Origin: a virus
Length of the DNA: 20,183 nucleotides
Reading direction: 5' to 3' (one strand)
Virus record (IMG/VR): IMGVR_UViG_3300017917_002214
Coordinates: 1 to 20,183 of that record
Shown: positions 3,489-15,257 of the stretch, piece after piece
Layout: each line of letters opens with the position of its first letter
How positions within the stretch are numbered: position 1 is the first letter of the stretch
Notes under the pieces: model-generated
Seen by the model: the letters and a program-made list of their open reading frames with translations, nothing else
Told to the model about the DNA's origin: nothing
The model's database searches: none
Translations under genes and position numbers: made by a program

Positions 3489-3510
3489 ATGTGGAGGAAT
3501 AATTCAAAAA

Positions 3511-3846
3511 ATGTCAATTAAATTAGCATTATTGAAATCTGGAGAAACTATAATCTCTGATGCCAAAGAACTGATTTCTGATGAAAAAGTTTGTGGATAC
3601 CTTTTTACAAATCCCCATAAAGTTGAAATAAGAAAATCTATTTTATTGGTGGAAGATCGGCAAATATCTAATGGAGCAGATGTTGAGATTTCTTTGTCTC
3701 CGTGGATTGTATTAGCAATCGATAAGAAAATTCCAGTTCCTCCAGACTGGATTGTTACGATTGTAGATCCTATTGCAACTATTAAACAAATGTATGAGGA
3801 AAAAGTAGATGTCCAAAATAGTGAAATGCCTTTTACTGAAAGTTGA
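3511..3846 (+). CDS. Conserved small phage protein upstream of polymerase, possibly Sm-like
   Basis: Product of 111 aa starting MSIKLALLKSGETIISDAKEL. It opens with predicted beta strands around 'LKSGE' and 'KVCGYLFTNP'. This strand order recalls the Sm/LSm fold, in which a ligand such as RNA binds an oligomeric ring. It ends with DWIVTIVDPIATIKQMYEE. Part of that ending recurs in the next gene (SILTIVDPKPEIVEKYLEL), so the two are probably distant paralogues. I recall conserved proteins of this type just upstream of gp43 in cyanophages, and an Sm-like protein of likely cyanophage origin with known structure. Linking that to this gene is inference. GGAGG lies 13 nt before the ATG, a long spacing. 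First gene behind the sigma70 promoter; its end overlaps the next gene by 38 nt. Confidence 0.82.
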   Translation: MSIKLALLKSGETIISDAKELISDEKVCGYLFTNPHKVEIRKSILLVEDRQISNGADVEISLSPWIVLAIDKKIPVPPDWIVTIVDPIATIKQMYEEKVDVQNSEMPFTES

Positions 3847-4063
3847 TAACGTAATTGTCACTCAAATCGAAGAAGTTCCTTCCGAGTTGGGTGAACCAGA
3901 TTGTCGTATTATCAATCCATATCAAATTAGTATTGATGGTGAACTTACTCCTTGGCCAGAAGTAACTGATCAAAGAGAAATGATGATTCATTCTGATAGT
4001 ATTCTTACAATTGTAGATCCAAAACCAGAAATTGTTGAAAAGTATCTTGAACTAACTGCCTAA
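3809..4063 (+). CDS. Conserved small phage protein, paralogue-like, 84 aa
   Basis: Second small protein ahead of the polymerase, 84 aa. Short beta-strand-like segments (KCLLLKVDNVIVTQIEE) are followed by CRIINPYQISIDGELTPWPEVTD and a C-terminal SILTIVDPKPEIVEKYLEL that echoes the previous protein. A GAGG at 3796-3799 precedes the ATG. The start overlaps the upstream gene by 38 nt and the stop overlaps the gp43 ATG (TAATG), so all three are probably co-translated. The function is unknown. Regulation of gp43 translation or RNA binding would fit the position but has no direct support. Confidence 0.82.
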   Translation: MSKIVKCLLLKVDNVIVTQIEEVPSELGEPDCRIINPYQISIDGELTPWPEVTDQREMMIHSDSILTIVDPKPEIVEKYLELTA

Positions 4064-6564
4064 TGAGATTTTATACAAACGTTCAGATGGTCGGGGATCA
4101 CTTCTTGGTTCGTGGTTATGAAGATGGTAAACACTTCATGACTCGTGAGAAGTTTAACCCGACTCTTTTTGTCCATTCTAATAAGAAAACTAAATATCAA
4201 ACTTTAAGTGGAGATTACGTTGAATCAATTCAACCCGGATCTGTCCGCGATTGTAGAGAATTTGTTAAAAAGTATGAGAACGTAGAAAACTTTAAAATCT
4301 TTGGAAATACTCAATACATCTATCAGTATATTTCTGACATTTATCCTGAAGAAGAACTTAAGTTTGATATTAGCAAGATTAAAGTAACTACGATTGATAT
4401 TGAGGTTGCATCTGAAAATGGATTCCCTGATGTAGAATCTGCTGCCGAAGAAGTTCTCTTGATTACCGTTCAAGATTACTCTTCAAAACAAATTCACACT
4501 TGGGGAAAAGGTTCTTTTCAAAATAAACAAAAAAATGTTGAGTATCGTTCTTTTTCTACCGAATATGATCTTCTGAATGATTTTATTCATTGGTGGATGA
4601 TTGAAACTAATACGCCAGAAGTTGTGACTGGATGGAATAGTAAACTGTACGATATTCCTTATCTTGTTCGTAGGATTGATAGGGTTCTTGGTGAAAAGTT
4701 AATGAAACGTTTGTCTCCTTGGGGACTTGTAACTGAAGATGAAACTTATATCTCTGGACGTAAGCATATTTGTTATGATATTGGTGGAATCTCTCAGTTA
4801 GACTATCTTGATCTTTATAAGAAGTTTACTTATAAGACGCAGGAATCTTATCGTCTTGATTATATTGCTGAAGTTGAACTTAAACAGAAAAAATTAGATC
4901 ACTCCGAGTTTGATACGTTTAAAGACTTTTACACTAAAGGTTGGCAAAAGTTTGTAGAGTATAACATCAAAGACGTGGAACTTGTTGACCGTTTGGAAGA
5001 CAAGATGAAATTGATTGAACTTGCTCTTACGATGGCATATGACGCCAAAGCAAACTACGAGGATGTATTTTCTCAAGTTCGCATGTGGGACACAATCATT
5101 TACAACTACCTAAAGAAAAGAAATATTGTCATTCCTCCTAAAGAACGTTCTGATAAAGACACCAAGTATGAGGGTGCTTATGTAAAAGAACCAATTCCTG
5201 GAATGTATGATTGGGTGGTGAGTTTTGACCTTAACTCTCTATATCCTCACTTGATTATGCAATATAACATTAGTCCTGAAACTTTGGTTGAAGAAAGGCA
5301 TCCATCAGTTAATGTAGATAAAATCCTCAATCAAACTATCAACTTTGAGATGTATAAGGATTATGCGGTATGTGCTAATGGTGCGATGTATCGTAAAGAT
5401 GTTCGTGGATTTCTTCCGGAATTGATGGAGAAGATCTATAATGAACGTGTCATCTTTAAAAAGAAAATGCTTGCGGCAGAGCAAGAATACGAAAAGACAA
5501 AGAACAAGGAATTAGTTAAAGAGATTGCTCGCTGTAATAACATTCAGATGGCAAGAAAGATTCAATTGAACTCTGCTTATGGTGCTATTGGTAATCAGTA
5601 TTTCCGTTATTTTAAACTAGCAAATGCTGAAGCAATTACACTTTCTGGTCAAGTTTCAATTAACTGGATCATGAATAAGGTAAATTCTTACTTAAATAAG
5701 ATTCTCAAGAGTGGAGATGTAGATTATGTTATTGCTTCAGATACTGATTCTCTTTACGTTAATATGGGTCCTTTGGTTGAGAGTGTATACAAAGGAAGAG
5801 AAAAAACTACTCAAAGCGTTGTTTCGTTCCTTGATAAGGTCTGTCAAGTGGAATTTGAAAAGTATATTGAAAATTCTTACAAAGAACTGGCTGAATATGT
5901 AAATGCTTATGAGCAGAAAATGATCATGAAGCGTGAGTGTATTGCCGAACGTGGAATCTGGACTGCAAAGAAGCGATATATTTTGAGTGTTTGGGATAGT
6001 GAGGGTGTTCGCTATGAAGAATCCAAACTTAAGATCAAAGGAATTGAGGCAATTAAATCTTCTACACCTGCTCCTTGTCGTAAGATGCTAAAAGAATCTT
6101 TTGGCATTTTAATGAGTGGTACTGAAGATGATATGATTAACTTTATTGATCGGTGTCGTGAGGAGTTTAAATCTCTTCCCCCAGAACAAATTGCATTTCC
6201 AAGAACTGCTTCTGATATTCGCAAATATTACTCAGATTCTAATATTTACGCCCCCAAAACACCAATTCAAGTTCGTGGTGCATTATTGTTTAATCATTAT
6301 GTAAAACAAAAAAATCTCACAAATAAATATTCTCTTATCAATAATGGTGAAAAAGTCAAGTTTTTATTTTTGAAAAAACCAAATATTATTCAGGAAAATG
6401 TAATCTCATTTATTCAGCAGTTTCCTACTGAACTTGGCCTTGACAAATATATTGATTATGAATTACAATTTGAGAAAGCATTTTTGGATCCACTCAAACC
6501 AATTTTGAATATTATTGGGTGGAAAGAAGAAAAAACAGTAAACCTTGAATCATTTTTTTCCTAA
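4063..6564 (+). CDS. 43: Replicative DNA polymerase gp43, family B
   Basis: Phage replicase with 3'-5' proofreading, 833 aa (T4 gp43 has 898). Exo I is TIDIEVASE (D112, E114). Exo II is VTGWNSKLYDIPY (N192, D197). Exo III is the YNIKD stretch (Y300, D304). Polymerase motif A is SFDLNSLYPHL (D389), motif B is ARKIQLNSAYGAIGN (K499, N503), motif C is ASDTDSLY (D560, D562), and KKRY is at 636-639. All catalytic residues are present. The last residues, ending LESFFS, resemble the short hydrophobic tail by which T4 gp43 binds the gp45 clamp (inference). The start overlaps the preceding stop by 1 nt and the stop overlaps the uvsX ATG in the same way. Confidence 0.99.
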   Translation: MRFYTNVQMVGDHFLVRGYEDGKHFMTREKFNPTLFVHSNKKTKYQTLSGDYVESIQPGSVRDCREFVKKYENVENFKIFGNTQYIYQYISDIYPEEELKFDISKIKVTTIDIEVASENGFPDVESAAEEVLLITVQDYSSKQIHTWGKGSFQNKQKNVEYRSFSTEYDLLNDFIHWWMIETNTPEVVTGWNSKLYDIPYLVRRIDRVLGEKLMKRLSPWGLVTEDETYISGRKHICYDIGGISQLDYLDLYKKFTYKTQESYRLDYIAEVELKQKKLDHSEFDTFKDFYTKGWQKFVEYNIKDVELVDRLEDKMKLIELALTMAYDAKANYEDVFSQVRMWDTIIYNYLKKRNIVIPPKERSDKDTKYEGAYVKEPIPGMYDWVVSFDLNSLYPHLIMQYNISPETLVEERHPSVNVDKILNQTINFEMYKDYAVCANGAMYRKDVRGFLPELMEKIYNERVIFKKKMLAAEQEYEKTKNKELVKEIARCNNIQMARKIQLNSAYGAIGNQYFRYFKLANAEAITLSGQVSINWIMNKVNSYLNKILKSGDVDYVIASDTDSLYVNMGPLVESVYKGREKTTQSVVSFLDKVCQVEFEKYIENSYKELAEYVNAYEQKMIMKRECIAERGIWTAKKRYILSVWDSEGVRYEESKLKIKGIEAIKSSTPAPCRKMLKESFGILMSGTEDDMINFIDRCREEFKSLPPEQIAFPRTASDIRKYYSDSNIYAPKTPIQVRGALLFNHYVKQKNLTNKYSLINNGEKVKFLFLKKPNIIQENVISFIQQFPTELGLDKYIDYELQFEKAFLDPLKPILNIIGWKEEKTVNLESFFS

Positions 6565-7568
6565 TGGATTTTCTTAAAGAAATTGTAAAAGAAGTTGGTG
6601 GCGAGTACACTAAACTTGCCTCTGATATTGATGAAACTGAAACTTATGTTGATACAGGTTCGTACATTTTTAATGCATTGGTTTCAGGTAGTATATTTGG
6701 TGGTGTATCTGGGAATAAAATTACTGCTATTGCTGGAGAGTCTTCTACTGGAAAGACTTTTTTCTCTCTCGCCGTGGTTAAGAACTTTCTTGATACTCAT
6801 TCCGATGGTTACTGTCTCTACTTTGATACTGAGGCTGCTATCACTAAATCTCTTTTAGAATCCCGTGGAATTGATACTTCTCGTCTTGTAGTTGTCAACG
6901 TTGTTACTATTGAAGAGTTTAGGGGTAAAGCACTTAAGGCAGTGGATATTTACTTAAAAAAACCTATAGAAGATCGCAAACCTTGTATGTTTGTGTTAGA
7001 CTCCTTAGGTATGCTTTCAACTGAGAAAGAGATTACTGATGCTCTGAACGATAAGCAAGTTCGTGATATGACCAAATCACAACTTGTCAAAGGTGCTTTT
7101 CGTATGCTCACTCTTAAGTTGGGGCAAGCAAACATTCCAATGATTGTAACAAATCACACTTACGATGTCATCGGTGCTTACGTTCCTACTAAAGAGATGG
7201 GTGGTGGTAGTGGTCTTAAGTATGCCGCTTCTACTATCATATATCTCAGTAAGAAAAAAGAAAAGGATGGAACAGAAGTCGTCGGAAACATTATCAAGGC
7301 AAAGACTGCTAAGTCGCGTTTGAGTAAAGAGAATCAAGAAGTTGAAATTCGTTTATTTTATGATGAGCGTGGTCTTGATCGCTATTATGGTCTCTTAGAA
7401 CTTGGGGAACTTGGGGGACTTTGGAAAAATGTTGCCGGACGTTATGAAATGGAAGGTAAGAAAATTTATGCAAAACAAATTCTAGCAAATCCAGAGGAGT
7501 ATTTTACTCCTGAAGTAATGGAAAAACTAGACGTAATTGCTAAAGGTGAATTTAGTTATGGAGTATGA
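6564..7568 (+). CDS. uvsX: UvsX recombinase (RecA-like)
   Basis: ATP-dependent strand-exchange protein that drives recombination-dependent replication and repair, 334 aa (T4 UvsX has 391). Walker A is GESSTGKT at 58-65. Walker B is the strand CMFVLDS with D146. The RecA-type core continues through KGAFRMLTLKLGQANIPMIV, the TNHTY segment and the glycine-rich loop MGGGSGLKYA. The ATG overlaps the gp43 stop (TAATG) and the stop overlaps the next start (ATGA), giving tight coupling in the replication operon. Confidence 0.98.
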   Translation: MDFLKEIVKEVGGEYTKLASDIDETETYVDTGSYIFNALVSGSIFGGVSGNKITAIAGESSTGKTFFSLAVVKNFLDTHSDGYCLYFDTEAAITKSLLESRGIDTSRLVVVNVVTIEEFRGKALKAVDIYLKKPIEDRKPCMFVLDSLGMLSTEKEITDALNDKQVRDMTKSQLVKGAFRMLTLKLGQANIPMIVTNHTYDVIGAYVPTKEMGGGSGLKYAASTIIYLSKKKEKDGTEVVGNIIKAKTAKSRLSKENQEVEIRLFYDERGLDRYYGLLELGELGGLWKNVAGRYEMEGKKIYAKQILANPEEYFTPEVMEKLDVIAKGEFSYGV

Positions 7569-8110
7569 AAAATATCAGAATTATAGAAACTGGTATTGAT
7601 GTTTCCGGTATTTTGAATCAACTGAAGCAGTACTCAGAAGATTGGGGATCTCAAAAAAATATTAAAAATACAGAACAGTTAGATCCCACAAAATATCTTG
7701 TAACAGCAGATGTTCTTCAGTTGATTGTTGGTGGAATTGAAAAGGAAGGTGATTATGTTGGAAATACTGAAATTTGTATTAAAACGCCAGCATATGAAAG
7801 GCATACTGAAATTCTTAAATTTGTAAATAAGAGATTTAAGAAAATTAGAAGATGTGGATTTCTTGCAATTCCAGTAGGGGATAAGGTGGGATTTCATATT
7901 GATGAAGGAACCTATTATCTTACCAAAGACCGATACCATCTTTCGATTCAAGGAAGATATGAATATAGTGTTGGTGATGAAACTTTAGTTATTGAACCTG
8001 GAACATTTTTCTGGTTCAATAATAAATTGCCACACCAAGCTGTTAATATTGGAGATAATGTTAGAATAACATTTGTATTTGATGTTCCACATCATAAGAA
8101 AAACCCGTAA
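7565..8110 (+). CDS. 2-oxoglutarate/Fe(II) oxygenase, Asp/Asn beta-hydroxylase-like
   Basis: Likely non-haem iron dioxygenase using 2-oxoglutarate and oxygen, 181 aa. The facial triad is visible: H111-x-D113 in GFHIDEG and H157 in KLPHQAV. R167 (NVRITFVFD) is well placed to bind the 2-oxoglutarate carboxylate. The R-x-H-L segment (DRYHLSIQG) and G-x-x-x-W-F (GTFFWFNN) fit the aspartyl/asparaginyl hydroxylase subfamily of the double-stranded beta-helix fold. Such genes are frequent in cyanophages; the substrate is unknown. The gene is embedded between uvsX (4-nt overlap) and gp41 (8-nt gap), so it is expressed with replication genes. Confidence 0.9.
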   Translation: MKNIRIIETGIDVSGILNQLKQYSEDWGSQKNIKNTEQLDPTKYLVTADVLQLIVGGIEKEGDYVGNTEICIKTPAYERHTEILKFVNKRFKKIRRCGFLAIPVGDKVGFHIDEGTYYLTKDRYHLSIQGRYEYSVGDETLVIEPGTFFWFNNKLPHQAVNIGDNVRITFVFDVPHHKKNP

Positions 8111-8118
8111 TTAAAATA

Positions 8119-9498
8119 ATGGAAAGACTTGAACTTACAATTTTACGCAATTTAGTTTATAATGAAGATTATTCGCGCAAGGTCATACCTTTTATTCAAC
8201 CAGATTATTTTGAAAAAAAGTCCGAAAAAGTCACGTTTGAAGAAATTGTTAAGTTCATTGTTAAATATGGTTCAGCAATTACAATCGAAGCACTTGGTAT
8301 TGAAATAGAAGGAAGAACAGACTTAACAGAGACTGAAATAAAAGAGATACGTGAATTAGTGTCTGAATTTAATGATTCTCTAGTAGAAAAACAGTGGTTG
8401 CTTGATACTACTGAAAAGTGGTGTCGTGATCGTGCTATTTACTTGGCACTTATGGAGTCAATTCATATTGCCGATGGAAATAATGAAAAAAAGAATCGTG
8501 ATGCGATTCCTAGTATTCTTTCTGATGCCCTAGCAGTATCTTTTGACAATAATATCGGACACGATTATCTTCAGAACTATGAGGAGCGATATGAGTTTTA
8601 TCACCGAAAAGAAGACAAAATTGAATTTGATCTTGAATATTTTAATAAAATTACCAAAGGTGGGATTCCTAATAAAACTCTTAATATCGCTCTTGCTGGT
8701 ACGGGTGTCGGGAAATCTCTATTCATGTGTCATGTGGCTAGTTCCGTCTTATTGCAAGGCAGGAACGTTCTCTATATCACACTTGAAATGGCTGAGGAAC
8801 GAATTGCAGAAAGAATTGATGCAAACCTATTAAATGTTCCTATTCAGCAACTAGTAGATCTTCCTCGTCAGATGTTTGAGAATAAGGTGACAAGTCTATC
8901 CAAGAAAACTCAAGGTACTCTTATAATTAAAGAGTATCCAACTGCATCTGCACATAGTGGACATTTTAAGGCACTTCTTAATGAACTTGCACTTAAGAAG
9001 TCATTTAGACCTGACATTATTTTTATTGATTACCTTAATATTTGTGCTTCCTCTAGGCATAAGGCAAACAGCTCTATAAATTCTTATTCGTATATCAAAT
9101 CAATTGCTGAGGAATTGCGCGGACTCGCCGTTGAGTTTAACGTCCCAATTGTATCCGCTACTCAGACCACTCGTTCAGGTTATGGTAATTCTGATGTTGA
9201 ACTTACTGATACTAGTGAGTCCTTTGGTCTCCCTGCTACTGCTGATCTTATGTTTGCCCTTATTAGTACAGAAGAGTTGGAGGGGTTGGGGCAGATTATG
9301 GTGAAACAACTTAAAAATAGATATAATGACCCTACAATTTATAAAAGGTTTATTGTAGGAATTGATCGTGCTAAAATGCGTCTATATGACTGTGAACAAA
9401 CAGCACAAAAAGACATACTTGACTCTGGAAACGAAGAAGAGTATAATGATAGTGAAGACAAAAAACCTAAAAAATCATTTGAAGGATTTAAATTTTAA
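8119..9498 (+). CDS. 41: Replicative DNA helicase gp41 (DnaB-like)
   Basis: Hexameric 5'-3' helicase of the phage replisome, working with primase gp61; 459 aa (T4 gp41 has 475). The N-terminal DnaB-like helical domain covers roughly residues 1-140. The RecA-type core has Walker A AGTGVGKS at 193-200 (K199), the catalytic glutamate E223 in YITLEMAEERIA, Walker B IIFIDYLN (D304), and the H4/sensor motif PIVSATQTTRSG (Q349). The acidic/lysine-rich tail ends SFEGFKF. The stop overlaps the mazG start by 1 nt. Confidence 0.98.
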   Translation: MERLELTILRNLVYNEDYSRKVIPFIQPDYFEKKSEKVTFEEIVKFIVKYGSAITIEALGIEIEGRTDLTETEIKEIRELVSEFNDSLVEKQWLLDTTEKWCRDRAIYLALMESIHIADGNNEKKNRDAIPSILSDALAVSFDNNIGHDYLQNYEERYEFYHRKEDKIEFDLEYFNKITKGGIPNKTLNIALAGTGVGKSLFMCHVASSVLLQGRNVLYITLEMAEERIAERIDANLLNVPIQQLVDLPRQMFENKVTSLSKKTQGTLIIKEYPTASAHSGHFKALLNELALKKSFRPDIIFIDYLNICASSRHKANSSINSYSYIKSIAEELRGLAVEFNVPIVSATQTTRSGYGNSDVELTDTSESFGLPATADLMFALISTEELEGLGQIMVKQLKNRYNDPTIYKRFIVGIDRAKMRLYDCEQTAQKDILDSGNEEEYNDSEDKKPKKSFEGFKF

Positions 9499-9911
9499 TG
9501 GAAACCAAACACGTTAATTTTAATAAGTATGCTGAGTTTGTCGATGCTGTAACTTCTGATGCATCGAAAGACTTTCTTGCTCTTTCCGATCGTTTAGTTC
9601 AACTGGATGAGAAAGGTGCTAATATTGAGAGACTCTTGACTGCTGGTGTTGGTATCAACGCTGAAGGTGGTGAGTTTCTAGAAATTATTAAGAAAATGAT
9701 CTTCCAAGGTAAACCTTATAATGAGGACAATCGTGAGCACCTGATTATTGAGTTGGGTGATATTATGTGGTATGTTGCTCAAGCATGTATTGCACTTGAT
9801 GTCACTCTTGATGATGTAGTTGCTCGTAATGTTCAAAAACTTCTGAAGCGTTATCCTGAAGGTGCTTTTGATGTTTATTTCTCTGAAAACCGTGCTGCTG
9901 ACGACCGATGA
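9498..9911 (+). CDS. mazG: MazG-type nucleoside triphosphate pyrophosphohydrolase
   Basis: All-alpha NTP pyrophosphatase, 137 aa. The metal-binding pattern E-x-x-E (E56, E59 in AEGGEFLEII) and E-x-x-D (E85, D88 in IIELGDIMWYV) is complete. The following helix (VTLDDVVARNVQKLLKRYP) is typical of the family. MazG is a common host-like gene of cyanophages. It was proposed to lower ppGpp, but (d)NTP hydrolysis is the better supported activity for the family. It lies between the helicase gene and the tRNAs, and its stop overlaps the next ATG (ATGA). Confidence 0.93.
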   Translation: METKHVNFNKYAEFVDAVTSDASKDFLALSDRLVQLDEKGANIERLLTAGVGINAEGGEFLEIIKKMIFQGKPYNEDNREHLIIELGDIMWYVAQACIALDVTLDDVVARNVQKLLKRYPEGAFDVYFSENRAADDR

Positions 9912-10081
9912 AAAAAGTCACTCTTAAAATGGATGTTCGTTCATCTGCAGCAGTCCGTCAAGTTCTGTTTGAAGCACAGAGAGGTTATAGTTATGAACAC
10001 GTTCCTCAACGGATTACTGATATTCGTGCCGTTGTTCAAGATATTGACGATGCTATCGGTTCTGTGGTAGAATCTGATTGA
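9908..10081 (+). CDS. Small hypothetical protein, 57 aa
   Basis: Short ORF starting MKKVTLKMDVRSSAAVRQVLFEAQ and ending DAIGSVVESD. Its ATG overlaps the mazG stop (ATGA). No domain is recognised: there is a predicted strand, then a helix (AVRQVLFEAQRG), then another helix (RAVVQDIDDAI). Composition and codon use look like the neighbours, and the frame is used right up to the tRNA region. It is probably a real coupled small gene of unknown function. Confidence 0.7.
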   Translation: MKKVTLKMDVRSSAAVRQVLFEAQRGYSYEHVPQRITDIRAVVQDIDDAIGSVVESD

Positions 10082-10092
10082 CCCTTCGGGGT
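10081..10092 (+). terminator. UUCG-loop hairpin between the coding operon and the tRNAs
   Basis: ACCC-TTCG-GGGT forms a 4-bp stem with a stable UUCG tetraloop, followed by TTT. It begins at the last base of the preceding stop. It may be a weak terminator or a processing or stability hairpin ahead of the tRNAs. The stem is short, so the assignment is tentative. Confidence 0.35.
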
Positions 10093-10098
10093 TTTACT

Positions 10099-10171
10099 GG
10101 GGAATTATCGCAGTTGGTAGTGCGCCTGATTTGTATTCGGGAGATCAGGAGTTCGAATCTCTTATTCTCCA
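10099..10171 (+). tRNA. tRNA-Thr (anticodon TGT)
   Basis: A 73-nt cloverleaf. Acceptor GGGGAAT/ATTCTCC has one G-U. The D loop is AGTTGGTA. The anticodon arm is CCTGA-TTTGTAT-TCGGG with anticodon TGT at 10132-10134. The T arm is AGGAG-TTCGAAT-CTCTT and the discriminator is A. No CCA is encoded. The D stem is imperfect (T10-C25 mismatch, G-U at 12-23). It reads ACA, a codon favoured in AT-rich phage genes. Confidence 0.88.
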
Positions 10172-10175
10172 CTTT

Positions 10176-10256
10176 GCCCAAGTGGTGTAATGGTAGCCAC
10201 GTATGCCTTAGGAGCATATATCGTAAGATGTGGAGGTTCGAGTCCTCTCTTGGGCA
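10176..10256 (+). tRNA. tRNA-Leu (anticodon TAG)
   Basis: An 81-nt class II tRNA. Acceptor GCCCAAG/CTTGGGC is perfect. The D arm is GTG/CAC. The anticodon arm is TATGC-CTTAGGA-GCATA with TAG at 10209-10211. The long variable arm has an ATC-GTAA-GAT mini-stem. The T arm is GGAGG-TTCGAGT-CCTCT. The discriminator is A and no CCA is encoded. It reads CTA. Only 4 nt separate it from tRNA-Thr, so the pair is probably co-transcribed. Confidence 0.93.
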
Positions 10257-10263
10257 CTAAATA
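10257..10263 (+). promoter_or_regulatory. Late promoter box CTAAATA directly after tRNA-Leu
   Basis: CTAAATA starts at the base immediately after the tRNA-Leu discriminator and ends 14 nt before the ATG at 10278, the same spacing as the box at 3204. It probably drives the accessory island as a late unit. Confidence 0.6.
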
Positions 10264-10277
10264 CTTGAAAAAGTCTT

Positions 10278-11135
10278 ATGGCTAAGATAGTTACAGAAAA
10301 TAGCACTGACCCAGATTATTATGATATTTGGGAATCTGCTGGAGCAAGAGGATATTTTAAATCTGGTGGTGGGGGATTTTTATATGAAGATTATTTGTAT
10401 TCTAAATGTAAGGATCTTGGATTAGTTCCTCCGGGATTTGCTCCTGCTGGTTCTGCTAATGATTTACCTGATCTTAAACTCCGTGTCGCTGGAGTTGGAC
10501 AAAAAACTTATACTAAAGGTATTCAACCACAAATTGCAAAGATTGAAATTAAATTAAATACTGAAGCTGATTTTGGACAAAGTGGTTTAAAGTGGGCTCC
10601 GGGAAGAAATTGGTATCTTGATGGGCAAAATAGTCCTGAGGGACTTCAAATGAGAACACTTCTTAATAGGATGGGTGTTCCTTTGAAAGTTAATGCTGCC
10701 TGGGGTGAATATGGACCACCTAAAAAATTTACGGCTGCAAAAACTGGGAGAGATATGAATAAAAAAGATTATGAATATGATATTCAAAGTTTTAAGGATG
10801 TCATATTAACTGGGGCTGATGCTCCAAATGTAACAACGTTGTTTCAATATTATGGTTCTAAACAAACAAATTATATACAAATAGGTGGTGGATATGGTCT
10901 TTATTATATGGGGTCTGATCCATTAAATTTAAAAACAGTCGGCGTCAAAGCATTTGATGGAACTTTAAAACTTAGGATTAGAAGAAAACCGGGTGGGAGT
11001 AGAACAGAACCATGGAACTATAGATTTTCTACTGCATTATTAATTGATAAAAAACCCAGACAAAGTAGTTTTGATTTGGAACAATCTGGAGAGGATCTAC
11101 TATACTATTTGGATAAATTTGGAGTATTTACATGA
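10278..11135 (+). CDS. Hypothetical protein, possible PD-(D/E)XK nuclease fold, 285 aa
   Basis: No family is recognised with certainty. Residues ~30-105 show spacing expected of a PD-(D/E)XK core. E37 lies in a helix (GFLYEDYLYSK), PD at 64-65 (ANDLPDLKL), E90-x-K92 in a strand (AKIEIKLN), and Q101 soon after (ADFGQ). An acidic residue, then D, then ExK, then Q is the usual order for this fold. The rest (to residue 285) is rich in Gly, Tyr and basic residues, with an RIRRKPGGSRTEPW stretch that might bind DNA. There is no signal peptide or membrane helix. It is preceded by a late box with little Shine-Dalgarno, and its stop overlaps the next start (ATGATG). Late expression would fit a packaging, recombination or packaged-nuclease role, but this is inference. 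Confidence 0.8.
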   Translation: MAKIVTENSTDPDYYDIWESAGARGYFKSGGGGFLYEDYLYSKCKDLGLVPPGFAPAGSANDLPDLKLRVAGVGQKTYTKGIQPQIAKIEIKLNTEADFGQSGLKWAPGRNWYLDGQNSPEGLQMRTLLNRMGVPLKVNAAWGEYGPPKKFTAAKTGRDMNKKDYEYDIQSFKDVILTGADAPNVTTLFQYYGSKQTNYIQIGGGYGLYYMGSDPLNLKTVGVKAFDGTLKLRIRRKPGGSRTEPWNYRFSTALLIDKKPRQSSFDLEQSGEDLLYYLDKFGVFT

Positions 11136-11380
11136 TGAAAGAACTGCAATTATTCATCAATAGTATTCTTGATATTTTTACAACCAAAAATTCAAGACCA
11201 AAAGATGTTTTTAACGATTTTATCAAGTATTTTTACTTCGCACTTGATAGGGAAATTCAATCTAATAAATCAGATTTGTTAAAGAATAAATATATTAAGA
11301 TTAGAAAGAATGGTCTCAATTACATTATTGCAAATGAAAAATCAATAATGTCGAGTATTTGTAATAGAACTAAAAAATAA
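11132..11380 (+). CDS. Small hypothetical protein, 82 aa
   Basis: Basic, helix-rich protein (MMKELQLFINSILDIF at the start, NRTKK at the end) with many Lys, Asn, Ile and Phe. The start overlaps the previous stop; translation could begin at either of two adjacent ATGs (11132 or 11135). It ends 2 nt before the capsid-targeted nucleotidyltransferase gene, so it belongs to the same unit. No domain is recognised. It could be a partner of the preceding nuclease-like protein, but nothing shows this directly. Confidence 0.7.
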   Translation: MMKELQLFINSILDIFTTKNSRPKDVFNDFIKYFYFALDREIQSNKSDLLKNKYIKIRKNGLNYIIANEKSIMSSICNRTKK

Positions 11381-11382
11381 GA

Positions 11383-12699
11383 ATGAAAAGTTTTTTCCAG
11401 TTTATTTCCGAAGCATCTGCATCCCAACAAGCAGCGCGTCTTGGTCTTGTTGGAGATGGGCACGGTGGATGGTATGATAAGCAAGGTGAGTTTGTAGCAA
11501 AAACTGAAGGTGGGCAACTTAAGTTTTATAATAAGCGTCAAAGAGTTGGACAAAAAGATCCGGCACAAACTGAAAAGGAAAAAACAATTGCATCACCTGG
11601 ATATAATGATCCAGCATTTCAGCAGCAAGCAACACAGCAGGCACCAGTAGAACAACCACCTGCACCCGAGCAGCAAGCAGCGCAGGAACAACCTCCTGTA
11701 CAATATCTTCCTGTTCCTAAAACAAAAGGAACTCTTACTATTGCCTTTGGTCGTTTTAATCCGCCAACAATTGGTCACCAACAATTGATGGATGTTGCGG
11801 CACAATCAGCCTCTCAAGATAAAGATGGGGAATATCTAATCTTCCCTTCTCGTAGTCAAGATAAGAAAAAGAATCCTCTTGACCCAGATACAAAGATTGC
11901 TTATATGCAGAAGTTCTATCCAAATCATGCAGGTAATATTGTAAATGATGCTAATACAAAGACAATTTTTGATGTCTTAAAAATGGCTCATAATAATGGA
12001 TATGCTGGGGTAAGAATTATTGGTGGTGCTGATAGAGTTAAGGAATTTGAAAAACTTTCTAATCAATATAATGGGCAACTTTATAACTTTGATAATATAG
12101 AAGTAGTTTCTGCAGGTGATAGAGACCCTGATGCAAAGGGTGTTGAAGGAATGTCTGCATCAAGAATGAGACTTGCTGCTGCCGAAGGTGACTTTAAAAC
12201 TTTTCGTTCAGGTCTTCCTCCCGAAGTAAAACCTGCAGAAGCAAGAGAATTATTTAATATTCTTCGTGGTGCGATGAATGTTAAAGAAGGTTGGGATATT
12301 TGGGAGATTGCTCCTAAACTTGATTTTCAGTCTCTTCGTGAAAATTATCTTTCGGAGGCAATCTTTAGACTTGGTGAAAAGGTTGAAAATTTAAATACTG
12401 GATTGATTGGGCGTATTATTCGCCGGGGAACTAATTATTTGATTTGTGTAACTGAGTCTGGGCAAATGTTTAAATCCTGGATTAAGGATTTGGTAGAATA
12501 TACTGAAGTAAAAATGGATCGAAAAATGAGAGATAAAATTCACCCTAATACTCTTACCGGAACTTTAGGAGCATTCAAACATTTTTCGGATATGACTCCT
12601 GGAGCAATCGAAACAGGGAAGAAAAATTTACAACCTGGTGGAAAGGCTTATACTGGATACAATATAAGAGAATTCATAAATAAATATAGAAAAAAGTAA
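11383..12699 (+). CDS. Capsid-targeted nucleotidyltransferase-like fusion protein, 438 aa
   Basis: Modular protein. Residues 1-11 (MKSFFQFISEA) closely match the capsid-targeting peptide of T4 internal proteins (MKTYQEFIAEA) and include a prohead-protease site I-x-E|A after E10. Residues ~15-50 hold a 'GLVGDGHGGWYDKQGEF' module that I recall from several cyanophage proteins. Residues ~72-112 are a Gln/Pro/Ala-rich linker. Residues ~115-300 look like a cytidylyltransferase-type domain: TIAFGRFNPPTIGHQQL with T129-x-G-H132 as the (H/T)xGH motif, RIIGGADR at 211-218, and MSASRMR at 257-263 resembling the ISxTxxR motif. Another L-S-E|A site is at 323-326. A C-terminal small beta domain follows (LGEKVENLNTGLIGRIIRRG, ~330-373), then a basic tail. 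The family transfers nucleotidyl groups to small molecules (for example NMN or phosphopantetheine); the substrate here is unknown. Probably packaged in the head and injected (inference). Confidence 0.88.
   Translation: MKSFFQFISEASASQQAARLGLVGDGHGGWYDKQGEFVAKTEGGQLKFYNKRQRVGQKDPAQTEKEKTIASPGYNDPAFQQQATQQAPVEQPPAPEQQAAQEQPPVQYLPVPKTKGTLTIAFGRFNPPTIGHQQLMDVAAQSASQDKDGEYLIFPSRSQDKKKNPLDPDTKIAYMQKFYPNHAGNIVNDANTKTIFDVLKMAHNNGYAGVRIIGGADRVKEFEKLSNQYNGQLYNFDNIEVVSAGDRDPDAKGVEGMSASRMRLAAAEGDFKTFRSGLPPEVKPAEARELFNILRGAMNVKEGWDIWEIAPKLDFQSLRENYLSEAIFRLGEKVENLNTGLIGRIIRRGTNYLICVTESGQMFKSWIKDLVEYTEVKMDRKMRDKIHPNTLTGTLGAFKHFSDMTPGAIETGKKNLQPGGKAYTGYNIREFINKYRKK
12676..12682 (+). promoter_or_regulatory. 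Possible late box ATAAATA before the modular protein
   Basis: CATAAATA lies in the last codons of the preceding gene, 31 nt before the ATG at 12714. It matches 7 of 8 bases of the T4 late box. AT-rich coding sequence gives similar matches by chance (AATAAATA occurs inside gp43 and the primase gene), so support is weak. Confidence 0.3.
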
Positions 12700-12713
12700 A
12701 TTAAAGAATTTCC

Positions 12714-14165
12714 ATGGCTCAAATTACAGGTGGACCTCATCGTGGACACGCCGCTGGTGATACTGATATTGAAAAACAAGCATCACAACTTGCATCTGAT
12801 GTAAAATATAAGGTCAGAAAAAGTATGAGTGGCTCAACGCATATGAATCCCGCACAAGTTGCTAGAGCATATCAGGCTCAATTGGATAAGTCTCCTGCAC
12901 CTGCGAATGTTAAAGCACTTGCAAAGAAAAAAATAATGGGGTCTTCATCACCTATTAGGAAAGAAGAATTTACTGATGGTAAAGATTTAGCAGTAGAAAG
13001 CGTTGCTAATGCGCTTTACGAAGTTTTTGTAGAGAAATCAGTACCAAAGATTGAAGAGCAAAGTGAATATCTAAAGGAATTATATTCTAAAGTTAATAAA
13101 AAAGGAGAAAGACTCTATCATATTATTGTAACTGATAAGAAGACTGGTAATACTTATACCCGTGATGCGACTCGTGAAAAGATTTCTGAACTTCGTGCAA
13201 ATCCAAATATTTCCTCAGTTGAAATGAGTGAGCGTCAGTTAGATTCTGAGGGAGAAAAATCTAAAGGAAAAAATACTGCAAGAGTAAAGGCAGGTAAAGG
13301 ATTAGATCCAGTAGGGCAAGAAGACTCTGATGTGAATAATGATGGTAAAGTAGATAAAACTGATAAGTATCTTCAGAACCGTAGAAATGTTCGTGGCGCA
13401 GCAATTGCAACTCGTAAAGAAGAGTTTATCCATGAGGCTGATAATGAAGATGTGAATACATCGAAAAAAAGAACTCAAATTAAACCTATGAAACCAGGTG
13501 AAAAAAATACAGTTATAATTTCGCCAACTCAAGGAAAAAAATTGGTTGCACACTATGAAATGGGGGGACCTTTCTTATCTGAAAAAGCAGTAAGTAAAGC
13601 ACAGCAGCGTTTTATGGGAATGGTTTATGCTGCTAAGAAAGGTGAAAAGGCAGCATCTCCCGAAGTTGCAAAGGCAGCTGCTGGAATGACTGGAAAGGAA
13701 GCAAAGAAATTTGCTAAAACAAAGCATAAAGGTCTACCTGGCCATGTCAAAGAAGAATCTGACTGTGGTATGGACGAAAAACCAAAACTCAAAAAAAGTG
13801 AAGGTGGTGAAGAAGACTCAAGATCAATTCCAACTAAAGTAAATTTGGTTAAGAATAAATTGAGATCCATGGGTCTTAAAATGTCTTATGAACTAGAGGG
13901 TGAAGTTATTGATGAGAGAAGAAAAGAAGATAAAGTAGCAGGAACTCCAAGAAAACCACGAAATCCTGCATTTGAGTTAGTTGCTAAATCCATGGGTACT
14001 AGTAGAATGGGTGTTCAACCCAGGGGGCAGAAGAAAGAACCAGGAAAAAAACCACCTGCTGCTGGTGAATATGGTTCTGGAGTAAAATCTCCGGCACAAA
14101 AAGTATCTATTCGTCGTGCTGCTGCTCAAAGAGCACAGGATATGATGCACTCAAGATTTGATTGA
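12714..14165 (+). CDS. Large lysine-rich modular protein with DUF3008 and EF-hand-like loop, 483 aa
   Basis: Multi-module, highly charged protein, probably virion or prohead associated. An N-terminal helical region (1-110) carries RKEEF at 82-86. Residues ~115-175 form a small domain (LYHIIVTDKKTGNTYTRDATREKI). A dockerin/EF-hand-like calcium loop is at 206-217 (DVNNDGKVDKTD). A second RKEEF at 234-238 runs into I-H-E|A (239-242), a candidate prohead-protease site. Residues ~290-345 match DUF3008 (AVSKAQQRFMGMVYAAKKGE, then SPEVAKAAAGM and KHKGLPGHV). The basic tail ends QRAQDMMHSRFD. DUF3008 has no known function. There is no membrane helix. The gene follows the capsid-targeted protein after 14 nt and may be co-expressed with it. 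The likely role, packaged DNA-binding or core protein, is inferred from composition and neighbours. Confidence 0.85.
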   Translation: MAQITGGPHRGHAAGDTDIEKQASQLASDVKYKVRKSMSGSTHMNPAQVARAYQAQLDKSPAPANVKALAKKKIMGSSSPIRKEEFTDGKDLAVESVANALYEVFVEKSVPKIEEQSEYLKELYSKVNKKGERLYHIIVTDKKTGNTYTRDATREKISELRANPNISSVEMSERQLDSEGEKSKGKNTARVKAGKGLDPVGQEDSDVNNDGKVDKTDKYLQNRRNVRGAAIATRKEEFIHEADNEDVNTSKKRTQIKPMKPGEKNTVIISPTQGKKLVAHYEMGGPFLSEKAVSKAQQRFMGMVYAAKKGEKAASPEVAKAAAGMTGKEAKKFAKTKHKGLPGHVKEESDCGMDEKPKLKKSEGGEEDSRSIPTKVNLVKNKLRSMGLKMSYELEGEVIDERRKEDKVAGTPRKPRNPAFELVAKSMGTSRMGVQPRGQKKEPGKKPPAAGEYGSGVKSPAQKVSIRRAAAQRAQDMMHSRFD

Positions 14166-14187
14166 TTGTTAAAAAAAGCTGAAGAGT

Positions 14188-14194
14188 CTAAATA
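14188..14194 (+). promoter_or_regulatory. Late promoter box CTAAATA upstream of the 56-codon ORF
   Basis: CTAAATA in an intergenic stretch, 31 nt upstream of the ATG at 14226, with a good GGAGG (14216-14220) between. Third exact copy of this heptamer in front of a gene in the window. Confidence 0.6.
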
Positions 14195-14225
14195 AGTTAG
14201 GATACTTCTATATACGGAGGACATC

Positions 14226-14396
14226 ATGGGAGCAATTGTAGAACTTGTAAAACCACTTCTTGTTCTGGCAGTAAACTCTTGCCATACTAAGAGACTTGTA
14301 TGTGATCTTCTTGACCGCTATGTTAAGACTACTGATAATGATATTGATAATGTTATTGCCGATACTGTAAGAACAGCACTTCTTAAAAATTGCTGA
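14226..14396 (+). CDS. Small late protein, 56 aa
   Basis: Starts MGAIVELVKPLLVLAVNSCHTKRLV and ends TALLKNC. The first third is hydrophobic (LVKPLLVLAV), but the length and the interrupting Lys and Pro make a true membrane span uncertain. The second half, DLLDRYVKTTDNDIDNVIADTV, is an acidic amphipathic helix. It has its own late box, a strong Shine-Dalgarno (GGAGG, 5 nt spacing) and a terminator 26 nt downstream, so it is a monocistronic late gene. I recall similar short proteins in other cyanophages but know no function. Confidence 0.8.
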   Translation: MGAIVELVKPLLVLAVNSCHTKRLVCDLLDRYVKTTDNDIDNVIADTVRTALLKNC

Positions 14397-14420
14397 TAAG
14401 TAGATATAAAATATCTCAAA

Positions 14421-14452
14421 AAGGAGACCTTTAAGTAGGGTCTCCTTTTTTT
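14421..14452 (+). terminator. Intrinsic terminator after the 56-codon gene
   Basis: A 7-bp stem GGAGACC/GGTCTCC (14423-14429 with 14439-14445), extended by two A-T pairs into the T tract, with a 9-nt loop or a 7-nt loop if the T-G wobble forms, and seven T at 14446-14452. It directly abuts the late box of the next gene. Confidence 0.9.
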
Positions 14453-14459
14453 ATAAATA
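14452..14459 (+). promoter_or_regulatory. Late promoter TATAAATA (exact T4 consensus)
   Basis: TATAAATA begins at the last T of the preceding terminator and ends 30 nt before the ATG at 14490. It is the exact T4 late consensus, in a terminator-promoter junction, upstream of a likely virion gene. Confidence 0.72.
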
Positions 14460-14489
14460 TTGATAGAAAAAGAATTAAGGGTAAGAAAC

Positions 14490-15257
14490 ATGTCACTTTG
14501 GGGCATTTCAACAAACGCTGAGACTGCTGCTAATAACTATGCTATTCCCAAGTTTTTGGGTAAATATTCTCCCGCCACTAGTCTTTTTGAAGCAACTGAT
14601 AGAAATAGAAGTCCTTACAACTGCTTTGCTGATAATCGTGGATGGATTCAAAGACATTATAAGTCTACACAACATTCTGGAATTTCCACTCGCTATTGGG
14701 ATTCTATTTTAGTTCCTATTGTTGGTTTAAATACTGCAGGTGCTGGAACCAGTACAGTTGGATTAGGAACTGCTACTCCAATTGCGGTTTTCTTTGAAGA
14801 TCCAAACTTTGCATCACCAATTAGCATTGGTGCTGGTGGAACTACTGGTATTTCTACAAATACTGTTGGTTATGTTCATGTCGTCTGGAATGAGGCAGTT
14901 TATTGCAGTGCTGGTGCAACAGTTCTGATTACTCCTTCTACTGGATCTAATATTGTTGCTTATGCAGCATCTGCAGGAGCTCCGATTCAACTTAATATTC
15001 CTGGAGTTGGTCAAACTGTAATCACCTTTAATGGGCAAATAACCAACAGAGTTGCTTTTGCGTTTACTGCACCTTCAACCGGTATTGGAGTAACTTTAAG
15101 AATTGCTACTGCAAATGGTGTTGTGGGAACAATTACCGACTTCTCTGGTGGTGCAGCAGTAGATAAAGTTATTAATGGTTTAGTTAAAAATATTGCTGGT
15201 GCTGGAACAACAATCGGTGTTGGTATTGGAACTACTGCATTATCGATTAAAGCATAA
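14490..15257 (+). CDS. Probable virion structural protein, 255 aa
   Basis: Starts MSLWGISTNAETAANNYAIPKFL. The 'MSLWG' opening is common among structural proteins of marine T4-like phages (from memory). The body is rich in Gly, Thr, Ser, Ala and Val, with many short 'GAGTST'/'GIGTT' segments suggesting an all-beta fold. The region from ~75 to the end has alternating strands and glycine turns. There are no catalytic motifs. A frame extension back to 14460 is rejected because it overlaps the late promoter; the ATG at 14490 has a weak AAGGG upstream. The exact position in the virion (decoration, neck or fibre-associated) cannot be told. The gene has an exact late promoter and is followed after 3 nt by another gene. 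Confidence 0.82.
   Translation: MSLWGISTNAETAANNYAIPKFLGKYSPATSLFEATDRNRSPYNCFADNRGWIQRHYKSTQHSGISTRYWDSILVPIVGLNTAGAGTSTVGLGTATPIAVFFEDPNFASPISIGAGGTTGISTNTVGYVHVVWNEAVYCSAGATVLITPSTGSNIVAYAASAGAPIQLNIPGVGQTVITFNGQITNRVAFAFTAPSTGIGVTLRIATANGVVGTITDFSGGAAVDKVINGLVKNIAGAGTTIGVGIGTTALSIKA

Follow-up and report, generated by a model that had tools for sequence, protein, structure and literature searches.

We report that the nucleotidyltransferase (NTase) gene of a T4-like cyanophage probably encodes an enzyme that is packaged into the virion by means of an N-terminal peptide of the T4 capsid-targeting type. We regard this reading as likely over its whole chain, from targeting to action in the infected cell; the location of the protein in the virion, taken by itself, is held with greater confidence. 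The idea of a packaged NTase has already been published, and what is new here is the likely route into the particle, that is the peptide, together with a module shared with other packaged enzymes. The gene lies in a virus record of 20,183 bases, analysed over its full length and referred to below as the window, whose gene set is that of a T4-like cyanophage and also includes a clamp loader, a Dam-type methylase, Hsp20, gp43, UvsX, gp41, MazG, two tRNAs, gp61 and NrdA. A T4-like cyanophage (Kyanoviridae) is the best explanation for its origin.

Table 1. Features of the NTase gene and its two neighbours in the window.
Feature	Residues	Position	Strand	Basis or remark
Upstream gene, phrog_26930, candidate PD-(D/E)xK nuclease		10278..11135	+	invariant E...PD...ExK...Q
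NTase gene, PHROG 395 / T4-GC190 orthologue	438 aa	11383..12699	+	
Capsid-targeting-like peptide MKSFFQFISE	1-10	11383..11412	+	predicted prohead-protease cut after E10, before A11
Small conserved module (A..LGL..DGHG.W.D..G..VAKT..G.LKFY)	16-55	11428..11547	+	common to other packaged enzymes
Variable Q/P-rich linker	56-114	11548..11724	+	alignment; pLDDT <50 at residues 54-107
NTase domain	115-300	11725..12282	+	PF01467, AlphaFold2, Foldseek
Catalytic motif FGRFNPP(T/H)xGH	122-132	11746..11778	+	alignment
Second nucleotide-binding motif MSASRMR	257-263	12151..12171	+	alignment
C-terminal beta-rich module	315-372	12325..12498	+	also matches phrog_4808
Downstream partner, DUF3008 + DxNxDGxxD loop		12714..14165	+	relatives MS-detected in S-SCSM1 (_92, _93)

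The open reading frame is real: most of 80 IMG/VR loci keep it complete or nearly so, and 533 phage records, mostly of Synechococcus and Prochlorococcus phages, match the NTase in whole or in part, the closest isolate being S-SRM01 (65%). A search for relatives on plasmids returned none. The PHROG 395 profile matches residues 111-391 of the window protein, covering the NTase and the C-terminal module, with an E-value of 4.9e-101. PHROG 395 is equivalent to T4-GC190, named "cyt(it)idyltransferase" and a core gene of T4-like cyanophages, and the position of the window gene between gp41-mazG and gp61-nrdA is the one expected for this family. The window protein is orthologous to its described members (S-SM1 gp190, P-SSM2_194, S-SCSM1 ORF91, S-CREM2 gp154) over the full length or the NTase domain, has the same N-terminal peptide and, in most cases, the same neighbourhood, and differs from them by sequence divergence only.

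The sequence-only reading of the window had pointed out MKSFFQFISEA at residues 1-11, TIAFGRFNPPTIGHQQL at 119-135, RIIGGADR at 211-218 and MSASRMR at 257-263, all of which are indeed present. Within the N-terminal peptide, M1, F4, F7 and E10 are invariant in 25 aligned NTases, and M1, K2, F4, F7 and E10 are invariant, or almost so, in 78 non-redundant relatives, whose alignment columns at these five positions have an entropy of 0-0.3 bit, as against 1.3-2.7 bits at positions 3, 5, 6 and 9. Of the 78, 76 have L, I or F at position 8 and 67 have A or S at position 11. When the strict motif was run against the 5,316 ORF starts of the compared loci, it selected 114 NTases, one of which (L109) has an odd catalytic motif, and three other proteins, one of them a DUF6267 neighbour of the NTase in DLP_6. 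Because of the entropy contrast among the 78 relatives and the near confinement of the strict motif to NTases, the conservation of the peptide, as judged from the sequences, is not due to chance.

In T4, genetic analysis of IPIII has established that ten residues are enough, that targeting depends mainly on positions 4 and 7 and processing mainly on positions 8 and 10, and that cleavage occurs after L/I-x-E (PMC9026906). The window peptide, with F4, F7, I8 and E10, agrees with both the targeting (4, 7) and the processing (8, 10) positions. The apparent likeness to T4 IPI, IPII and IPIII thus comprises a ten-residue N-terminal peptide with an aromatic residue at position 4, F7, I/L8, E10 and the L/I-x-E rule, whereas the cargo differs, the T4 internal proteins being small and basic and the window protein carrying an NTase and extra conserved modules. 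The sequence GSFLAE/APT occurs near residue 58 of the S-SCSM1 major capsid protein, a location that we take to be close to the cut site of T4 gp23, and this FLAE/A makes it plausible that the same cleavage rule operates in these phages. A prohead protease is annotated in S-SCSM1 and S-CREM2; the window, a genome fragment, yielded no match to the gp21 protease within its 20,183 bases. A second candidate prohead-protease site in the window protein, LRENYLSE/A at about residue 325, was rejected, since [LIV]-x-E-[ASG] is found there in only 13 of 76 relatives. No cyanophage paper mentioning capsid targeting was found in the open-licence literature, and the available portions of the S-SM1, S-SCSM1, S-SZBM1 and S-CREM2 papers make no mention of the peptide.

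Orthologues of the window protein have been detected by mass spectrometry (MS) in the virions of these four phages. A 2010 survey records a 'putative citidylyltransferase (T4-GC190)' in S-SM1 virions, counts T4-GC190 among the core genes shared by all 16 cyanophages and terms its product a structural protein (PMC3037559); later papers report S-SCSM1 ORF91 (PMC9602691), S-SZBM1_140 (PMC9146016) and S-CREM2 ORF154, or gp154 (PMC10665884). All four detected orthologues (4/4) begin with the peptide: MKKFSAFLNEA in S-SM1, MKSFLQFLKEA in S-SCSM1, MRFRQFIIEA in S-SZBM1 and MKNFSSFLTEA in S-CREM2. The same survey states that S-PM2 encodes T4-GC190 and that the product was not detected in S-PM2 virions (PMC3037559), a result that is not comparable with presence of the peptide, the N-terminus of the S-PM2 orthologue not having been located. 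The virion evidence consists of four orthologues and applies to the particle, not specifically to the head; combined with the sequence comparison, it lends good support to the earlier proposal that the NTase is packaged into the head by a T4-type capsid-targeting peptide.

Alternatively, the NTase could be a cytoplasmic auxiliary metabolic enzyme that co-purifies with particles, its peptide serving some other purpose, for instance binding to a membrane or a complex. The surrounding genes are those of replication and nucleotide metabolism (gp43, uvsX, gp41 and mazG upstream, gp61 and nrdA downstream), two of the proteomes gave low counts for the NTase, of 2 and 3 peptides, and the authors of two of the papers were themselves cautious: they put forward carriage and entry but allowed for co-purification (PMC9602691, PMC10665884). 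However, the NTase was found in four separate virion data sets, adjoining cassette genes were MS-detected as well (89, 90, 92 and 93 in S-SCSM1; 155, 156 and 160 in S-CREM2), the peptide fits the T4 determinants of targeting and cleavage, and a tight version of the motif picks out only virion-detected proteins in S-CREM2. We consider co-purification improbable, even if it survives better than the other alternatives discussed below.

For S-CREM2, all 219 listed proteins were scored, 52 of which belong to the MS virion set; 24 proteins are classed as structural. A looser pattern, fixed earlier, was weakly enriched (5/52 virion proteins versus 4/167 others, p 0.037). The tight pattern fixes F7; it was derived from the alignment of the NTase family, at a point when some S-CREM2 N-termini had already been seen. 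It occurs in 5 of the 219 proteins, all of which were detected in virions, and in no structural protein (Fisher p 6.5e-4). These five are the SAM lyase gp6, gp13, the kinase gp14, gp136 and the NTase gp154; the nuclease gp12 carries FASFMAEA at residues 19-26. Along S-CREM2 positions 3500-14500 (L180), the MS-detected gp6, gp13, gp14 and gp12 bear the motif, and the adjacent enzymes not found in virions (dam gp8, gp10 and gp11) are without it. Virion proteins of S-SCSM1 as a whole show no enrichment (1/48 versus 5/234), as expected if most virion proteins are parts of the shell and tail; the tight motif is present there in the NTase and in one small protein undetected by MS.

The resemblance between the NTase and other virion enzymes extends beyond the peptide. 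A profile of NTase residues 1-57, with E-values that refer to a nine-sequence set, matches the S-CREM2 kinase gp14 (3.7e-23, two copies) and nuclease gp12 (1.2e-14) as well as the MA10 kinase; a weaker match (2.9e-5) is to an HNH-like gene that precedes an NTase; tblastn over all phage records gave a match to gp14 at 2e-4. The matches to a kinase and a nuclease indicate that the module is common to unrelated enzymes in the same virions. Like the window NTase, the SAM lyase gp6, the Cas9/HNH-like gp12 and the APH-like gp14 have a CTS-like motif, and gp12 and gp14 also share the module at residues 16-55, whereas the catalytic domains of all three are unrelated to it. The recurrence of residues 1-55 in two other virion enzymes, a kinase and a nuclease, suggests a portable cargo module. 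We are inclined, with some reserve, to view these residues as a cargo-loading unit, composed of a targeting peptide and a small DGHG-x-W domain, that T4-like cyanophages put on unrelated enzymes (NTase, kinase, HNH/Cas9-like nuclease; on the SAM lyase the peptide alone), which would be effectors arriving with the DNA. A further candidate for packaged cargo is P-SSM2_211 (L081:26595-28316), a protein of 573 aa that starts MKSLSQFIIET.

The peptide is absent from the stand-alone NTase domains of P-HM2, S-RIM44, Pseudomonas phage Ettore, Salmonella phage Munch and phage CBB, and CBB_73 is not among the 55 CBB virion proteins. In a sister clade (S-RIM44/Syn1/P-HM type) the NTase domain is present and both members read are without the peptide; about fifty cyanophage records are, by similarity, of the S-RIM44/P-HM type. 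Packaging of the NTase domain is thus not universal, or follows another route in that group.

The family of the downstream partner directly follows the NTase in about 145 of 156 loci. Two virion proteins of other phages deserve mention: S-SCSM1_93 (L082:8266-8475), a 69-aa DUF3008 protein with a targeting-like C-terminus, TFKEFLEYIE, and S-CREM2 gp156 (L094:5013-5726), detected by MS, which contains a nucleotidyltransferase domain of the polymerase-beta type (PF01909). The slot upstream of the NTase varies among relatives, being filled by DUF6267, the PD...ExK family or several unnamed families; for the window gene in this slot, the structure model was too poor (mean pLDDT 51) to confirm a nuclease fold. 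In phrog_455, DUF6267 and the NTase form one fused protein, the upstream DUF6267 proteins (L088, L091, L092, L093, L174, L177) contain the ligase-like motifs K[WY]DGAP, FFVGTKS, EGFV and K[LI]V[DN]R, and that of DLP_6 starts MMKFTQFLAES. The P-SSM2 'tRNA ligase' gp198, considered as kin of this neighbour, proved unrelated. Genes for tRNA-Thr(tgt) and tRNA-Leu(tag) lie at 10099-10257, directly before the virion-protein cassette, which opens with CTAAATA at 10257, an occurrence not above chance. The late-promoter motif NATAAATA is not in excess in the window and does not occur at the start of the NTase gene.

The nucleotidyltransferase fold that the sequence-only reading assigned to residues 115-300 was recovered by structure prediction and Foldseek, which led to CoaD/NadD adenylyltransferases. 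Confidence in the AlphaFold2 model is high for the NTase domain only (core pLDDT mostly 80-92, lower at 249-253), and the best solved matches are to CoaD/PPAT (E 1e-6, with TM 0.63-0.75 by target length for those near the top), followed by NadD (TM about 0.6) and then NMNAT (about 0.5). Pfam CTP_transf_like (PF01467) matches residues 120-223 with 27.2 bits (cut-off 21). Residues F122, G123, R124, N126, P127, P128, G131 and H132, as well as S258, S260 and R263, are invariant in the 25-sequence alignment, and the fold, with the HxGH and SxSxxR motifs, places the window protein in the HxGH nucleotidyltransferase superfamily. The beta-rich module is a separate gene in some relatives, and the tail that follows it in the window protein ends FINKYRKK. 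The conserved C-terminal modules and the long disordered linker, along with the structural-protein label in the 2010 survey (PMC3037559), could be taken to indicate a structural or scaffold-type head protein that retains an old enzyme fold without catalysis. The HxGH, SRSxDxKKNPL, GxDR and SxSxxR motifs, however, are invariant or nearly so across relatives of about 40-90% identity, as expected for a working active site, which renders such a role unlikely.

With regard to the chemistry, the window protein reached none of the NCBIfam equivalog cut-offs, those for NadD and NadR included (TIGR00482, 18.1 bits versus 112.45; TIGR01526, 16.4 versus 341.15), and no CoaD model of NCBIfam was matched, although CoaD is the closest fold. 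Sequence searches of the PDB gave matches to the linker only with the single protein, and only weak NMNAT leads with a profile. S-CBWM1 is reportedly cited for an NMNAT. Both the modelled fold and these sequence leads favour adenylyl transfer over CDP chemistry. A CDP-type (TagD-like) cytidylyltransferase of envelope or teichoic-acid-like metabolism, suggested in one proteome paper (PMC9146016) and compatible with the common annotation name and with a Pfam family that spans both activities, is doubtful given that the best folds (CoaD, NadD, NMNAT) are adenylyltransferases, that no cytidylyltransferase is among the Foldseek matches listed for the NTase model, and that the weak profile matches are to NMN/NaMN adenylyltransferases.

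If the NTase is packaged by a T4-type targeting peptide, as we propose, residues 1-10 would act like the T4 sequence in bringing the precursor into the prohead core, a gp21-type protease would then cut after E10, and the mature enzyme, starting at A11, would remain in the head with the DNA and enter the cell at infection. Once there it would probably move AMP from ATP onto a small metabolite, the most likely acceptor being NMN/NaMN- or phosphopantetheine-like, and the benefit to the phage may be a cofactor supplied at once or a depletion undone. T4 Alt, a packaged ADP-ribosyltransferase, offers a parallel in concept, as an enzyme that accompanies the DNA into the cell, but is unrelated in fold and chemistry; no ADP-ribosyltransferase domain was found in the window protein, PF01467 being its only Pfam match.

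The viruses that have the NTase as a core gene are very common in the sea and in fresh water, and the enzyme may already be inside the cell when expression of the first phage gene begins. With a readable peptide, scattered proteomics matches that their own authors were unable to tell apart from contamination become a list of cargo that can be predicted and tested, and the role of the NTase in the first minutes of infection becomes approachable.
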